Assembly: GCA_023511795.1 (NCBI GenBank)
Contig: JAIMAU010000003.1
Location: 62,001 to 126,000, forward strand
From: Armatimonadota bacterium
GTDB lineage: Bacteria > Armatimonadota > UBA5829 > DTJY01
DNA length: 64,000 nt
Reading direction: 5' to 3'
Under the pieces are notes generated by a model. It was not told the origin of the DNA, searched no databases, and worked only from the letters and a program-made list of their open reading frames with translations. The translations under genes were made by a program, and so were the position numbers. Every line of letters begins with the position of its first letter. Within the stretch, counting starts at the first letter, position 1. This document shows positions 42,278 through 52,612 of this stretch, in pieces.

Positions 42278-43264
42278 CTAGGGTCTGCGTTTTATTCCAC
42301 TGCACAGCCGCCTTCTAAACACCGTCGCTACACATGTCAGCATAGCCGATAGGCTGAGCAGCGATCCAGGCTCTGGCACAGGCGTCAAAGTAGATATAAC
42401 CCCCACTGTGTCTCCACCAATCAGCACTGACAAACTGTTGTCGAGAGCTGAATACCTCAGAGTAGTAAGATAATGATAAGGGTTATGCACCGACGCAAAG
42501 CCGGTTGCTACTGCTGAACCATTCGCCAGCTTGTAAAGTGTGCCGCCGCTAGTGAAGAAAATATTACCCAAGACGTCTAGCTCCATATCATATGGAGAAC
42601 TGATAGAGCTTGCCAAGATCTGGCCGTCAGCCTGGGTTAGACTGGTTGGGCCAATAGCGCTTGCTACATCTGCAGCACTGAATCGCAAAATAGAATCGCC
42701 ACCACGAGCCCAAGCAGTTGCATATAACAAATTATCCGAGCCATCGAATGCCAAAGGGCCAGAATAGCCACTCAATCCAATTACTATCTCATCGGCCATG
42801 CCATCAAATAAAAACACCTTTTGTCCTGCCCATTCAGGATTGGCCGAAACGAAAGCTTGGCCTAAGGAATTAAACTCCAAATCGAAATTATTCTGAAGCG
42901 TTCCAATCAACTGTGGATTGCTACCATCCAAACCCATCTGCCAAATGGTACCATTTGAACTCTCTCCGAAGTAAATAGCTCCCCCTCTTACTTTGACAAA
43001 TGAACCATAGACCGGCGAATTGAATGTGTAAAGTGTACTCACATTTCCATCACTAGTCACCTTTACGATACGATTCCCCGAAAAAGCCACAAAGTTGCCA
43101 TCCGGCAGCCTATCAAAACCAGCAACGTATTCGCCAGGCTGTATCTGGAACACTATGTCCTGAACGGCATAACCAGTAGGCCCATCCAAGTATGCCGCAT
43201 AAGCAAGTCCGGCAAAACTTAATAGAGCAACTGTCATAATTAATAAGAGACTTTTTCTAACCAT
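42278..43264 (-). CDS. PEP-CTERM surface protein with beta-propeller-like repeats
   Basis: 328 residues from the ATG at 43264, which follows AAAGGAG with seven-base spacing; the frame opens 20 codons earlier. A signal peptide (KSLLLIMTVALLSFAGLAYA) precedes beta-rich repeats such as GFDRLPDGNFVAFSGNRIVKVTSDGN, GAIYFGESSNGTIWQMGLDGSN and ELDVLGNIFFTSGGTLYKLANG, in the style of NHL/SMP-30-like propellers. The C terminus has VPEPGSLL, a hydrophobic helix and the basic tail FRRRL, a PEP-CTERM sorting signal removed by an exosortase. No exosortase is in the window. It lies 100 bases after the OB-fold surface protein on the same strand and may share the B12 riboswitch transcript. Confidence 0.8.
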   Translation of the reverse strand: MVRKSLLLIMTVALLSFAGLAYAAYLDGPTGYAVQDIVFQIQPGEYVAGFDRLPDGNFVAFSGNRIVKVTSDGNVSTLYTFNSPVYGSFVKVRGGAIYFGESSNGTIWQMGLDGSNPQLIGTLQNNFDLEFNSLGQAFVSANPEWAGQKVFLFDGMADEIVIGLSGYSGPLAFDGSDNLLYATAWARGGDSILRFSAADVASAIGPTSLTQADGQILASSISSPYDMELDVLGNIFFTSGGTLYKLANGSAVATGFASVHNPYHYLTTLRYSALDNSLSVLIGGDTVGVISTLTPVPEPGSLLSLSAMLTCVATVFRRRLCSGIKRRP

Positions 43265-43364: not shown

Positions 43365-44798
43365 CTAACTACTAATTACTAAAATATCGTCCTGCTTGCG
43401 AACCTTGACGATAGCAATTATTCCCTTGCCTTCTTCCTGTTCAAAAGAAGCAATACCGGTCACTATTACATACTGTCCCTCAGCTGGCGATGTTAGACCC
43501 GCACAACGAACTTTGAGTCCCAGACCATCCAGTGAGCCGTCGTTGAGGAAAAAGTACCCATCGCCCGTGGAAGTTACTCTACCCCAGGTAGTAATAAGAA
43601 GACCAGCGTTGCTAAGCCCAGCACTGCTTCCTACCCTAGAGTTGGGCATTCCTAATGGCTTTGGGGGCAAACCTGCTGACATCTTATAAATTCGCGCATT
43701 ATCTATGAAACAATCGTTGTTCTCTATACCGAGTGTACCTATGACAGCGATACGGTCGCCCTCCGAAATCGAAGAGGCTGTTGTTCGCACACATATTCCG
43801 CTAGACCGGTCCTCTTCTTGGATATAAACCTCGCCGGCAAAGACGGCGCTGACGACTTTGCCGGCGAGCGCGACAACCGTTCCCGTGGGCTGCCTTTTCA
43901 CCTCACCGACGGGGGTGGTACCGGTGAGTGGTGAAACACAGGAGACGGCATCAATTTCGGCGGATATTTCTCCTAGGAATCCCGCATTATCACCCACCAA
44001 TGCATCGGTAATCCTGATGAAGTGGAAACATGGGAGATTTGCATATTCAAACGGCTGTATAGGCACACCGGGTGATATCTCCTTAACAGCTTCAGCAATG
44101 TCAAAAGCGTCTCCACCGCCCGAACCATCGTCTATCAGCAAGCTCTGCGGGTCGCCCTCAATGCTTCTGCGGTCGGGCACGGTATAAAACTCCTCAGGTG
44201 TTTTGCCAGGTGGAAGTGCAAGGGTCGGCGTATACTCCGCATAGTTCCTCAGAATGGTTGCCGAGTAGCCAGTATCGCAGTTCTCTGCTGGCGAGCCGAT
44301 TAACTGAGAAGGTAGTTTATTTGGTAGGACCAGATACCACTCGTCATCCGCAAGGCCATTTCCGTTTTTATCCATGCTAATCTCAATGAATGCTGGTTCT
44401 TGCCACCTATATGTTGGGTCGCCACCCACCCACACTGGATTGCCAAAAACAATGCAGTCCAACCCATGGAGGTTCCTAGGATCATCCCAAACAGGGTGGT
44501 CGAACGCAAGCACTATGCGCCCACCATCACCAAGGCTTACCAACGACTCATTGCATGGCTCGGAAACAGTTCCTCCCTGTGGAGGACCCAAAGTTTTTAG
44601 GGGATTGTTGAACTTTGGATTATTCACCCACTGGCCAGGTCCGGGTGAATACTCAATCACGCTTGAAGCAAACCGCCCTGCAAACACGCGCCCCGAAGTC
44701 ACACAGGCGCAAAGGAGAAAAAGCAAGAAGTAATGCAAAAAAAGTAATGGGCAAGACCTCCCTTGCTTTTTCTCCGACATCTTATGTTTTGCGTTCAT
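43365..44798 (-). CDS. Secreted protein: B12-locus-type surface domain plus tandem OB-like modules
   Basis: 477 residues from ATG 44798 (GGGGG about eight bases ahead); an upstream ATG at 44825 overlaps the previous stop as ATGA and is also possible. A signal peptide (FLHYFLLFLLCACVTSGRVFA) is followed by a domain (about 45-270) with YSPGPGQWVNNPKFN, SLGDGGRIVLAFDHPV, LDCIVFGNPVW, EPAFIEISMDKNGNGLADDEWYLV and FHFIRITDAL. From memory this pattern (gly-rich SLG, FGN, EP..V.V..D.NGNG..DD.WYEL) occurs in cell-surface proteins of Bacteroidetes B12 uptake loci. Two OB-like modules follow (about 300-380 and 395-470; GKVVSAVFAGEVYIQEED and GRVTSTGDGYFFLNDGS). It is second gene after a cobalamin riboswitch. 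Function unproven. Confidence 0.7.
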   Translation of the reverse strand: MNAKHKMSEKKQGRSCPLLFLHYFLLFLLCACVTSGRVFAGRFASSVIEYSPGPGQWVNNPKFNNPLKTLGPPQGGTVSEPCNESLVSLGDGGRIVLAFDHPVWDDPRNLHGLDCIVFGNPVWVGGDPTYRWQEPAFIEISMDKNGNGLADDEWYLVLPNKLPSQLIGSPAENCDTGYSATILRNYAEYTPTLALPPGKTPEEFYTVPDRRSIEGDPQSLLIDDGSGGGDAFDIAEAVKEISPGVPIQPFEYANLPCFHFIRITDALVGDNAGFLGEISAEIDAVSCVSPLTGTTPVGEVKRQPTGTVVALAGKVVSAVFAGEVYIQEEDRSSGICVRTTASSISEGDRIAVIGTLGIENNDCFIDNARIYKMSAGLPPKPLGMPNSRVGSSAGLSNAGLLITTWGRVTSTGDGYFFLNDGSLDGLGLKVRCAGLTSPAEGQYVIVTGIASFEQEEGKGIIAIVKVRKQDDILVISS

Positions 44799-44821
44799 CT
44801 TGCTACCCCCATGGAATATTC

Positions 44822-45730
44822 TCATTCAAGATCAAATAGCTCGTTGCTATCAGGACCGAACCAGCCAACCTTGAATCTCCTATTGTCCCCCCGATAGTTG
44901 TTTTTTGGAATAGTAAATGTCATCGCCTCAGACGACACATGCCCATCACACCAGGCTACATTCGCCCGCCCGTTATGTCTAAAATGGATAGACGGCATGG
45001 TGTGGGTTTTGGATACGCCTCTCGCATCAACAAAATAAGGAGGTTCGCAGAAGGAATACTCAATGAGATGTTGACTTGGATAGCCCTGGGGCATCGCAGT
45101 GTCTGTGAACATAACAGTGCGTTCTGGATGCTTGACCATATGTATTGCCGCAGTCGTCTGAGCAGCCTGGGGGGTCATGCCGTAAAGCCAATAACTTCCC
45201 CCAATGTACATAGCGTTGTACCCGTAGCCGCCACCACCTGACTCAAAAGCATTTCCGCTCCTATCAAGCAAGCCTACCAAGGGACATTCTTTAACTTCTG
45301 CGCTTTTGCCTAAGTATGGAAACAGCGGGCCTTTCTCAGGCTGGAATTTTGTCCTGCCATCCGATGTTTCTCGCCATCCATGCCAACGCCAATGTCCTCC
45401 TGAACCATCGAAAATGTCCACAGCCGCAGGAACGAACCTACCGTCATAGTCTTGTGCATAAAGTCGGTTGGCTAGAACAAGTTGCTTAAGGTTCGCCGCA
45501 CACTTCGCCTTGGCTGCTGCCTGTCGTGCGGATATAAAAACGGGGAACAAGATTGCGGCTAGCAATGCAATTATTACAATGACAACGAGAAGCTCGATTA
45601 GCGAAAAACCATCCTCTCTTAATTGCAGAGAAGATGAAAGCTTCTTATAAACAAAACGGGCTCTCGTCTTCGCCCAGATGCCTTTTTCAACGAGAGCCCG
45701 GCAAGTTGCGCCGAACAAACGCTCTGCCAT
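44822..45730 (-). CDS. Pseudopilin-like H-X9-DG protein, first gene after the B12 riboswitch
   Basis: 302 residues. A type IV prepilin N terminus is present: after 41 residues comes G41 then FSLIELLVVIVIIALLAAI, with the conserved glutamate at +5 of the mature protein. The leader is unusually long, but the ATG has GGAGG six bases ahead. The body (about 70-290) matches the large family of pseudopilin-like proteins ending in an H-X9-DG motif, seen here as HNGRANVAWCDG, common in Planctomycetes, Lentisphaerae and Armatimonadota. It would be cleaved by a prepilin peptidase and held in the membrane or a pilus-like fibre. Its expression is predicted to be controlled by cobalamin through the riboswitch at 45762-45945, which is the notable feature. 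Confidence 0.85.
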   Translation of the reverse strand: MAERLFGATCRALVEKGIWAKTRARFVYKKLSSSLQLREDGFSLIELLVVIVIIALLAAILFPVFISARQAAAKAKCAANLKQLVLANRLYAQDYDGRFVPAAVDIFDGSGGHWRWHGWRETSDGRTKFQPEKGPLFPYLGKSAEVKECPLVGLLDRSGNAFESGGGGYGYNAMYIGGSYWLYGMTPQAAQTTAAIHMVKHPERTVMFTDTAMPQGYPSQHLIEYSFCEPPYFVDARGVSKTHTMPSIHFRHNGRANVAWCDGHVSSEAMTFTIPKNNYRGDNRRFKVGWFGPDSNELFDLE

Positions 45731-45945: not shown

Positions 45946-45968
45946 AGCATATTCAGTTGTCAGCCGTA

Positions 45969-45997
45969 ATCATAACAAACCTTTGCTAGTCTGTCAA
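45969..45997 (-). promoter_or_regulatory. Promoter of the cobalamin-riboswitch operon
   Basis: Minus strand: TTGACA (45992-45997), exactly 17 bases, TATGAT (45969-45974). Predicted start near 45962, about 17 bases before the aptamer begins. It is among the best promoter matches in the window. Confidence 0.75.
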
Positions 45998-49560: not shown

Positions 49561-50388
49561 TTAACACGCCGTCTTTACAAGCTTATCGATTGCTTTCGCC
49601 TGCTCCAAAATCACCTTCAGCGAGTCCAACTGTAGCATGGTTGCGGCATCAGAAAGCGCTTTACTGGGGTTGGGATGCACCTCCAAGAAAAGGGCATCAA
49701 TGCCTACTGCGCACGCAGCCCGAACGAGATGCGGTACGAACTGTGGGTCTCCACCCGATGCCATCCCAAGGCCTCCTGGCCGCTGAACGCTATGCGTTGC
49801 GTCGAAGACTACCGGGCAACCGGTTTCTCTCATGATGACTAAACTTCTCATGTCTACAACTAGATTGCCATATCCAAAAGTTGTCCCGCGCTCGGTAAGC
49901 AAGATGTTCTCGTTTCCCGCCGATTTCGCTTTTTCTACAAGGTTTCCAACGTCGGATGGAGCAAGAAACTGTGCTTTCTTGATATTCAGCGGTTTTCCAG
50001 TCTTCGCAGCAGCTACAAGCAAGTCTGTTTGGCGGCAAAGGAATGCAGGTATTTGAATGACGTCCACTACTTCAGACACAGGTGCCGCCTGCCAAGCTTC
50101 GTGAATATCAGTTAGAACAGGGATTCCAAACTCTGATTTGATTCTTGAAAGTATCTCAAGGCCTTTCTCAAGCCCAGGCCCTCGAAACGAAGATATTGAA
50201 AGACGATTCGCCTTGTCAAAAGAGGCTTTGAATATATATCCCATACTCAAGACCTGGCAGATGTCCTTCACCTGACTTGCTATCTCGCGGCAAAGATCTT
50301 CACTCTCAATCACACAAGGTCCGGCAATTAGAGCAATGGGCTTGCTACCGCCGATTGTTACGTCTCCAACATTAATCTCTTTCGTCAT
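49561..50388 (-). CDS. kdsA: 3-deoxy-8-phosphooctulonate synthase (Kdo-8-P synthase)
   Basis: 275 residues. It condenses phosphoenolpyruvate with arabinose 5-phosphate to give Kdo-8-phosphate, the first committed step to Kdo. Signatures: [90 protein letters not shown] and [12 protein letters not shown]. It overlaps the preceding fusion gene by ATGA and has GGAGGAG ahead. Last clearly coupled gene of the LPS operon. Confidence 0.96.
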
Positions 50389-51620
50389 TTTTCTCCTCCA
50401 AGCAACCGCCTCACTTTTTCAAGGTCTTCGTGGGTATCAACGCTAGTCGGGGAAAAGGCGGCTTCAACCATCTTTATCTTATATCCATGTTCAAGCGCTC
50501 GAAGCTGCTCAAGCGATTCAGTCTTCTCGAGCGACGTGGGGGTCAGGCTGGCAAAAGTAAAAAGGAAGTCGCGCCGATATGCATAAATGCCGATGTGCTT
50601 GCGAACCATCGAGTGCTCAGGATGTCTAGGATAAGGTATCCATGACCGCGAGAAGTAGAGCGCAAAACCTTGCTGGTCTGTAACAACTTTAACTACCGCA
50701 GGATTTTCTGCCTCTTCGGGAACAGCTAATCCACACATTAGGCTTGCCATTGGCATTGTTGGGTCATCGACCATCGTGCAAACAAGTGCATCAACAGCAC
50801 TTGGGTCGAGAAGCGGCTCATCGCTCTGAATATTAACTATTATGTCAGCAACTATATCTTTAGCTGCCTCAGCGATTCTATCTGTACCCGAACGGTGTGC
50901 CTCAGAAGTCATGATTATCTTGCCGCCAAACGATTCTACGCATTGTTTTATCTCGACATCGGGTGTTGCTACAATAACATCGTTAAGGAGATGAGCAGAG
51001 GAGGCTCTTTCGTAAACCCACCTGATCATGGGCTTGCCGCCTATATCTAGAAGTGGCTTATTTGGAAGGCGAGTTGCGGCAAGGCGAGCCGGAATTATAC
51101 CAACCGCGGTTTGCGAACCACACTTATCAAAAGCTGGTTCTATTGGTTTTCTAGCCCGAACTTCTGCAATAAGTCGTGAGGTAGACTTTCCTTCTACCAG
51201 AGGGAGAATCGCGATGCGCCCGCCATAAGAACGCACTGCCTCAGCCTCGGGAAGCTGGTCGGGGGTATAATCCCCTCCTTTGACGTGGATATCCGGCTTC
51301 AATTCAAGTATTAGATTGGTGGGAGTAAGCTCTGAAAACAGCGAGACGTAATCCACAGATTCAAGTGCGGCCAATATTTCGGCGCGTTCAAATTCCGGCA
51401 CTAACGGCCTTTCAGGTCCTTTGATTCGTCGAACTGATTCGTCAGTATTAAGGCCGACGATTAGGCAATCCCCCAAAGCTTTTGCCATTTCAAGGTAGCG
51501 AACGTGGCCAATATGGAGTATATCGAAACAGCCATTGGTGAACACAATTGTTTTACCTGCTTGCCGAAGGTTATCTATAATACCTTTGAGCACTGAACGG
51601 CGGACTATTTTTGTCTTCAC
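50385..51620 (-). CDS. Fusion: heptose-1-P adenylyltransferase (RfaE2) + CMP-Kdo synthetase (KdsB)
   Basis: 411 residues from the GTG at 51620, which overlaps the kinase stop (GTGA) and has GGAGG eight bases ahead; the frame opens seven codons earlier at a TTG. Residues about 1-160 are RfaE domain II, a nucleotidyltransferase with [22 protein letters not shown] (HIGH motif) and [10 protein letters not shown], which makes ADP-heptose from heptose 1-phosphate. Residues about 171-411 are KdsB, with [42 protein letters not shown] and [11 protein letters not shown], which activates Kdo as CMP-Kdo. Two sugar-activation steps for the LPS inner core are joined in one chain. In most bacteria RfaE2 is fused to the kinase (HldE) and KdsB is free; here the kinase is separate and adjacent. 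Confidence 0.93.
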
Positions 51621-52612
51621 TCCATTGGCCTCCGTTCGCAATCGAGCATAGAACGGATTTCCTCTCTTGATACAGTAGCCACGCCTACCTTCCTAACAAC
51701 CGCGCCGCCTGCGCAATTTGCAAGCACACTAGCTTCAAGAACGGTGGCACCTGCTGCGAGTGCAAGCGCAAGAACACTCACAACAGTATCTCCAGCGCCT
51801 GCAACATCGTAGACCTCAACCAAGTGCGCAGGTATCGCTTCCATTTCACCATTCAGGCCAAACAAAGCCATGCCCTGTGGACCACGAGTAATCAGTAGGT
51901 TCTGGGGCTGAAGCATTGAGAAGAGCCGCTTCGCTGCGCGCAAAAGTTGACGTTCAGAAGTGATGTAAATCCCTGTGGCTGCTTCCGCCTCAGACTGATT
52001 CATTGTGATAATATTTGCAAACTTGAAGTGTTTTGCATTTCGCGGCTTTGGATTGACAACAACAACTTTTTTGTATTTTCTAGCTGATTCGATAATAGAC
52101 CGGACAATCTCACTTGTCGCCATACCCTTGTCGTAATCAGAAAATACGATAATATCTGCGGCCGGCAGGAGCTCCTCTATTAAGGACATGACTTTCTTAA
52201 GCACTGACCTCCCGATTTTCTTCCTGCTTTCTCGGTCAACGCGGACAATCTGCTGGTTGTGTGCAATTATCCTGGTTTTCCTCGTAGTTGGCCTATTAAA
52301 ATCGGTAACCAAGCCACCTATGAAGACGCCCGCCTTTTCCAAGTGCTCGGCAAGCTTCTGCCCAGCTGCATCCTCACCAATAACACCAATAACGGACGAC
52401 ACTCCATCCAGCGCTTGGATGTTGTTTACTACGTTAGTTGCCCCTCCTGGAGTTGAACTTTCCTCGCGCACCTCAACCACCATGACTGGCGCCTCAGGCG
52501 ATATGCGCTTTACATCACCCCACACATACTCATCAAGCATCACATCGCCTATAACAAGCACATGTTTGCCAACCATTCCGTCGAGTATTTCCTCAAACCT
52601 GGACTTCGTCAA
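51617..52612 (-). CDS. rfaE1: D-glycero-beta-D-manno-heptose-7-phosphate kinase (HldE kinase part)
   Basis: 331 residues of the PfkB/ribokinase fold. GKHVLVIGDVMLDEYVWGDVKRISPEAPV is the HldE/RfaE1 N-terminal signature, GGATNVVNNIQAL binds substrate, and VYDVAGAGDTVVSVLALALAAGA holds the catalytic aspartate of the GAGD motif. It phosphorylates heptose 7-phosphate at O1; the adenylyl transfer is done by the next gene's first domain. TTG start overlapping the previous stop (TTGA), AAGGAG ahead. GmhA, GmhB and HldD, also needed for ADP-L-glycero-heptose, are not in the window. Confidence 0.94.
   Translation of the reverse strand: MTKSRFEEILDGMVGKHVLVIGDVMLDEYVWGDVKRISPEAPVMVVEVREESSTPGGATNVVNNIQALDGVSSVIGVIGEDAAGQKLAEHLEKAGVFIGGLVTDFNRPTTRKTRIIAHNQQIVRVDRESRKKIGRSVLKKVMSLIEELLPAADIIVFSDYDKGMATSEIVRSIIESARKYKKVVVVNPKPRNAKHFKFANIITMNQSEAEAATGIYITSERQLLRAAKRLFSMLQPQNLLITRGPQGMALFGLNGEMEAIPAHLVEVYDVAGAGDTVVSVLALALAAGATVLEASVLANCAGGAVVRKVGVATVSREEIRSMLDCERRPME

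Follow-up and report, generated by a model that had tools for sequence, protein, structure and literature searches.

A BtuH-like domain and a prepilin recur together behind cobalamin riboswitches in Armatimonadota and other phyla

Introduction

What does a secreted protein encoded behind a cobalamin riboswitch do in an Armatimonadota bacterium (GTDB lineage UBA5829; DTJY01), and which of its neighbors act with it? The gene lies in a 64,000-nucleotide stretch of assembly GCA_023511795.1 (contig JAIMAU010000003.1, positions 62,001 to 126,000), the whole of which we call the window. A first-pass annotation, made from the sequence alone, had described a secreted protein in which an N-terminal domain is fused to two OB-like modules. 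It assigned the spaced motifs of this domain to 'cell surface protein' genes of Bacteroidetes B12 riboswitch loci, called their role undefined, and proposed that handling corrinoids or their carrier proteins is the task of the domain itself, a point to be checked by counting how many profile matches sit beside a cobalamin riboswitch.

The statement of an undefined role is outdated. For BtuH2 (PDB 7biz), direct binding of free cyanocobalamin was demonstrated in 2022 along with a crystal structure and a solved complex, which defines the role of the domain in Bacteroidetes (PMC8941943). The dissociation constant for B12 measured by SPR is ~6 pM, a value that, according to its authors, lies beyond the instrument limits and calls for caution (PMC8941943). 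A second structure, 8blw, contains BtuB1–BtuG1, where a BtuH domain is fused to BtuG1 (PMC10404256). BtuH has been described from gut Bacteroidetes and a few Firmicutes homologs, and btuB lies in the same operon for >80% of gut btuH homologs (PMC8941943); in Bacteroidetes it is a common neighbor but not a required one.

Results

Organization of the operon

The operon reads, on the minus strand, promoter, cobalamin riboswitch, DUF1559 prepilin, BtuH-domain gene and PEP-CTERM propeller (Table 1), with no TonB receptor among its genes. The earlier placement of the BtuH-domain gene beside a B12 riboswitch therefore holds for the operon as a whole, but the gene comes second and the prepilin first. 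Only 19 nt separate the end of the aptamer from the pilin ATG, and this interval contains no terminator-like site, which suggests translational control by the riboswitch. Within positions 45959–45720 of the minus strand, ACCGTCTTC, located before the pilin Shine–Dalgarno sequence, perfectly complements GAAGACGGT in the aptamer core, a pairing that may represent the expression platform, though the MFE fold pairs ACCGTCTTC locally.

Table 1 Features of the cobalamin-riboswitch operon in the window.
Feature	Position	Strand	Remarks
Sigma-70-like promoter, TTGACA-17-TATGAT	45969..45997	minus	11/12 consensus match; 0.3 expected in shuffles; consensus match only
Cobalamin riboswitch aptamer, RF00174	45749..45955	minus	118.7 bits; sole one in the 3.09 Mb assembly
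DUF1559 / H-X9-DG prepilin-like protein	44822..45730	minus	First operon gene; NCBIfam/Pfam models
Prepilin C-terminal tail VGWFGPDSNELFDLE	44825..44869	minus	Typical of riboswitch-linked pilins
BtuH-domain protein gene	43365..44825	minus	ORF of 486 aa; secreted, tandem OB folds; alternative start 44798
BtuH-like B12-binding domain	43935..44678	minus	Residues ~50–297; phmmer, family profile, Foldseek
DKNGNGLADDEW loop	44337..44372	minus	Residues 152–163; likely Ca-binding DxNxNGxxDD loop, common to BtuH2
OB module 1	43671..43928	minus	Residues ~300–385; AlphaFold model and Foldseek; approximate boundaries
OB module 2	43368..43613	minus	Residues ~405–486; AlphaFold model and Foldseek; approximate boundaries; weak Pfam RMI2 match
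Secreted YWTD/NHL-type beta-propeller, PEP-CTERM signal	42278..43264	minus	Likely start ATG 43264; ORF start 43324

The ATG at 44825 has only an ATGA overlap with the pilin stop. The start at 44798 chosen by the first-pass annotation, with GGGGG 7 nt upstream, is plausible from the sequence. All four N-terminal motifs quoted earlier are found in the 486-aa protein, which is confirmed as a secreted N-terminal domain followed by two OB folds. Judged by eye, its signal region contains a hydrophobic stretch with a cysteine (LLCACVTSG) and lacks a classical lipobox. Searches with Pfam and NCBIfam returned weak RMI2 and LIC_13355 matches alone and no usable name for the N-terminal domain.

A BtuH-like domain followed by generic OB modules

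By sequence, profile and predicted fold, the N-terminal domain is a homologue of BtuH. A single-sequence phmmer search of the PDB matched 8blw_B (E 8.3e-9) and 7biz_A (E 6.5e-8) over residues 51–166, with the alignment continuing weakly near residues 233–294; on these alignments, exemplified by NGNGLADDEWYLV against NGNGLPDDEWYEL, the assignment to the Bacteroidetes motifs proved right. A 17-row family profile raised the significance to 1.8e-29 for 8blw_B and 5.9e-21 for 7biz_A and matched nothing else in the PDB. The AlphaFold model (pLDDT 86.6, pTM 0.78) gave the same two structures as top PDB matches in Foldseek (7biz, 2.9e-10; 8blw, 4.7e-10), with low whole-chain TM-scores of ~0.3, as expected if the flanking domains differ. 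The domain is a divergent member of the known BtuH type. A profile of a divergent subtype (A2) found no PDB relative by itself, so the link of A2 to B12 comes from synteny, shared motifs and the A1 profile.

In the same Foldseek search, 7biz and 8blw are followed by proteins with OB folds, HIN domains, RMI2 and Ten1 among them, supporting the tandem OB modules proposed earlier. The special weight that had been placed on their fusion to the domain did not survive, as the OB pair is generic in this Armatimonadota class and lies outside the core common to several phyla. We dropped the fusion as a functional clue because the pair occurs in many class proteins away from the sole riboswitch. The module recurs class-wide, often in proteins of 500–2000 aa (e.g., G000:C2:121798 and G000:C4:11112 in the window's own genome).

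Residues of the ligand pocket

In BtuH2, Asn399 contacts the cobamide phosphate and Gln333 the ribose (PMC8941943). Adding 100 to the 7biz chain numbering gives the published numbers, and Q333, N399 and F401 all fit. Asn399 corresponds to N129 of the window protein and does not vary among the 67 sequences compared, which come from several phyla; Gln333 corresponds to Q65, with Gln in 43 of the 47 sequences that have a letter at this position. The F401 position is Phe in 47 of 67 relatives and Val131 here. BtuH2 and the window protein also have in common a DxNGNGxxDDEW loop, for which we infer a role in Ca2+ binding.

The corrin-side contacts of BtuH2 are not retained. W577 of BtuH2 is F283 here and varies across the family, and for H476, Y510 and W511, which lie in an unalignable loop, no clear equivalents are seen; the His476, Tyr510, Trp511 and Trp577 contacts are those described for BtuH2 and do not necessarily define the family. 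As these residues are not kept, the details of ring-side binding must differ from BtuH2. Taken at the level of sequence, cobamide binding by the window domain is likely.

Association with cobalamin riboswitches

The 28 genomes of the class contain 26 genes for the domain, 23 of which could be assessed. A hand count placed 22 of these 23 on the same strand as a riboswitch and at most 3.5 kb downstream of it, and the exception (G241:C3:82579) has a riboswitch ~6 kb away. We then scanned one genome per species across 84,980 species with a protein pattern that is blind to RNA, obtaining 158 relatives and keeping 80 loci, which were searched with a covariance model trained on 14 riboswitches of Armatimonadota. 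Of the 80 loci, 72 have a same-strand riboswitch upstream and seven of the rest are truncated by a contig edge, so that the association holds for 72 of the 73 that can be assessed, distributed over Armatimonadota, Phycisphaerae, Hydrogenedentota and other groups. Among the 72 matches, 67 fall below 1e-5 and five are weak (E 0.006–0.7); L180 is the one assessable locus where the riboswitch is truly absent. Such counts are essentially impossible under random placement in a rough binomial estimate with assumed gene numbers, with the reservation that related genomes are not independent. In distant Armatimonadota families, RF00174 is found at three loci (L094, L095, L096) and the AdoCbl-II riboswitch RF01689 at another (L100), and neither search found a cobalamin-class riboswitch at L093, L098 or L099.

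With matches overwhelmingly beside cobalamin riboswitches, the count strongly supports the proposal that the domain is itself concerned with corrinoids. Given this near-total association, we conclude that the BtuH-like domain very probably handles corrinoids.

The prepilin as conserved partner

The conserved partner of the domain, missed by the first-pass annotation, is the prepilin and not the OB modules. The protein scores above the cut-offs of three models (TIGR02532, 28.3 bits, cut-off 16.3; TIGR04294, 27.3, cut-off 19; PF07596, 30.9, cut-off 23.3) and has an N-terminal methylation motif and an H-X9-DG motif. Its predicted structure (pLDDT 94.4, pTM 0.90) gave only weak pilin matches in a fold search, and its predicted C-terminal domain had no solved-fold match. 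The VGWFGPDSNELFDLE-type tail is absent from those pilin paralogs of the same genome whose ends were read.

A search with the window pilin (E<1e-15) revealed such a pilin next to the domain at 67 of the 80 loci, in nearly all cases bearing a GWFGxxDNxLFDL-like tail; the remaining matches at this threshold are two tail-less pilins in L180, far from the domain. An alignment of 59 pilin sequences shows little or no variation in RWHGxR, CP, FE..GG.GYN, HFRH, DGH, GW.G and N. The class has two subtypes, one combining a GWFG-type tail with one BtuH-like subtype (10 loci) and the other a GxLSxDDSAYDL-type tail with the second BtuH-like subtype (11 loci), so that the BtuH and pilin subtypes correspond in 21 of 21 class loci (a Fisher value for this match ignores shared ancestry). 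In six Hydrogenedentota, one ORF joins the BtuH-like protein to the pilin, with a membrane segment before the prepilin motif. Synteny, matched subtypes and fusion together argue for the pilin and the BtuH-like protein being functional partners; the mechanism is a separate matter. The combination of riboswitch, BtuH-like domain and dedicated prepilin is found repeatedly in different phyla.

The fused ORFs (L142, L158, L164, L166, L171 and L173) measure ~800–1100 aa; each combines a signal peptide and the BtuH-like domain with TSP3/Ig-like regions, a membrane segment resembling a sorting signal and, internally, a prepilin (GFTLIELL). At four loci of three further genomes (L078, L081, L082 and L083 in G237–G239), a DUF1559 pilin follows the riboswitch and no gene could be recognised as BtuH-like; of the two components, the pilin may be under such regulation more widely.

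The propeller and gene orders in other lineages

Profile searches with the third operon gene returned LDLR/YWTD, SconeE and PQQ-type propellers, with neither BtuG nor YncE among the matches listed. On these matches, a BtuG identity for this gene was rejected.

Gene order varies between lineages. The usual order in Armatimonadota of the class is riboswitch, pilin, BtuH-like gene and propeller. In the Phycisphaerae loci that were read, the riboswitch precedes a protein with a PEP-CTERM-like tail, the BtuH-like gene and the pilin, the first of these genes being called a propeller from size, position and weak matches only. Hydrogenedentota place a larger BtuH-like protein, with TSP3/Ig-type parts where read, after the riboswitch and before the pilin, and the gap between riboswitch and domain is ~230–330 nt in many of them. 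In a deltaproteobacterial metagenome-assembled genome (L137, 6256–11764), the riboswitch stands ahead of genes for a TonB receptor, a PKD lipoprotein with the BtuH-like domain and a second PKD protein similar to propellers, an arrangement that recalls Bacteroides in a genome from outside Bacteroidota.

Outer membrane, receptors and use of B12

A Kdo/heptose cluster at positions 49561–52612 of the minus strand of the window encodes KdsA, an HldE-II::KdsB fusion and HldE-I, with KdsA, KdsB and both HldE halves above cut-offs; these genes make an LPS-type outer membrane very probable for this organism. Its genome also encodes the B12-dependent NrdJ. A FecCD-family match is present in every class genome that is ≥90% complete and ≤5% contaminated, and the FecCD protein of the window's genome has BtuC as its best match and lies beside a BtuF-like protein, below curated cut-offs.

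Five genomes with the module (G220, G221, G233, G234 and G236, with completeness of 94%, 80%, 100%, 100% and 97%) gave no TonB-dependent receptor with two Pfam models, bearing in mind that drafts can miss genes. As some TonB receptor is present in 15 of the 20 module genomes, we rejected simple mutual exclusion of module and receptor, and the claim is limited to these five receptor-less genomes and to two that have a riboswitch–BtuB arrangement. In the latter, both from the window's family (G223 and G225, loci L063 and L064), a riboswitch precedes a TonB-B12-like receptor (1.3e-80 and 1.4e-74, below cut-off) accompanied by ExbB/ExbD/TonB-like genes, and the BtuH-like domain was not found. A PduO-type adenosyltransferase-like gene follows the riboswitch at L064 and L062. 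The domain thus keeps company with a TonB receptor in some lineages, but apparently does without one in five class genomes.

The window's own genome has a TonB receptor on contig C11, in one run with a NikR-like regulator, an ECF-type CbiM/Q/O-like transporter and ExbB/ExbD/TonB (L189, 982–8171), probably a nickel/cobalt uptake locus. Because of its neighbors, the NikR-like regulator and the ECF Ni/Co-type transporter, we set this receptor aside as a BtuB, and it may yet have a role in B12.

Discussion

We judge with good confidence that the operon is a cobamide-capture system that low intracellular B12 turns on. Homology and context give the capture step good support. B12 scarcity would relieve the riboswitch and allow expression of the operon, whose three proteins would all be exported. 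Extracellular corrinoids would then be captured by the BtuH domain, which would hold them by the nucleotide loop with the aid of Ca2+, while the sorted propeller and the OB modules would tether or dock the BtuH protein at the surface. The prepilin could form or cap a short pseudopilus on which the loaded protein is displayed or by which it is relayed, a role that we infer from synteny, co-variation and fusion, and a BtuF–BtuC-type inner-membrane transporter encoded elsewhere in the genome would take up the cobamide. The pilin is a candidate for the outer-membrane crossing of cobamides. That a B12-regulated pseudopilin and a BtuH-type protein go as far as replacing BtuB across the outer membrane, providing TonB-independent cobamide uptake in diderm Armatimonadota, Phycisphaerae and Hydrogenedentota, is a bolder proposal that we hold to be rather doubtful.

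The operon might instead encode an adhesion organelle of B12 starvation, in which the BtuH fold is kept, cobamide binding is lost, and the pilin and sorted surface proteins attach the cell to surfaces or to corrinoid-producing neighbors. The identity of the partners, a pilin and a PEP-CTERM surface protein, fits this reading, as do the OB modules seen in so many class proteins and the absence of the corrin-ring contacts of BtuH2. But the phosphate-contacting Asn is invariant in all 67 sequences from several phyla, the deltaproteobacterial locus has the domain and a TonB receptor together downstream of a cobalamin riboswitch, and the OB modules lie outside the conserved core, making adhesion without capture improbable.

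Binding to corrinoid carrier proteins or corrinoid-bearing particles rather than to free cobamide, also raised by the first-pass annotation, draws on the resemblance of the propeller partner to the YWTD propellers of the LDL-receptor family, which bind proteins. We know of no corrinoid carrier in such environments. This reading becomes very unlikely in view of the homologous BtuH2, which binds free cyanocobalamin directly in a solved complex (PMC8941943). That the riboswitch serves the pilin gene alone, with the BtuH-like gene a bystander, as the pilin-only loci of G237–G239 might suggest, has next to no chance: the pilin and BtuH-like genes of the window overlap by ATGA, the order differs in Phycisphaerae and Hydrogenedentota with the BtuH-like gene still behind the riboswitch and often directly so, and the association at 72 of 73 loci refutes it in practice.

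In further phyla, represented here mostly by metagenome assemblies, the BtuH domain forms the center of a conserved module behind the riboswitch. The module hints at what one portion of the large DUF1559 family may do and poses a testable question, namely how outer-membraned bacteria with no TonB-dependent receptor at all take up cobamides. In the part of the open literature that was searched, titles and abstracts contained no link of a cobalamin riboswitch with PEP-CTERM, DUF1559/prepilin or pilin, and no earlier account of the riboswitch–pilin–BtuH module, which to that extent is new.

Among known systems, the DUF4465 lipoproteins BtuJ and BtuK resemble the window protein only in the concept of riboswitch-linked extracellular B12 binding; they form a different family, and Pfam DUF4465 gave no match here at E<=1. 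The BtuG surface propellers likewise stand in B12 operons, but the window propeller is LDLR/YWTD-like and PEP-CTERM sorted, and its sequence suggests no B12 binding. The closest relatives are BtuH2 (BT_1956, 7biz) and the H domain of BtuG1 (BT_1490, 8blw) of Bacteroides thetaiotaomicron, whose homologous domain also belongs to a cobalamin-riboswitch locus, has a surface or extracellular location, and keeps the Gln/Asn nucleotide-loop contacts and the DxNGNGxxDDEW loop. In the window protein, the domain stands at the N-terminus ahead of the OB folds, whereas a PKD or propeller part precedes it in the Bacteroides proteins; it is apparently plainly secreted and not a lipoprotein, and its corrin-side residues differ from those of BtuH2. 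Unlike the BtuH2 and BtuG1 systems, its operon has a prepilin and a sorted propeller in place of btuB and btuG. The window pilin, finally, has the N-methylation motif, the long N-terminal helix and the H-X9-DG motif of DUF1559 prepilins in general, but belongs to a subfamily tied to cobalamin riboswitches and distinguished by invariant RWHGxR and FE..GGYGYN motifs and by its GWFGxxDNxLFDL (or GxLSxDDSAYDL) tail.
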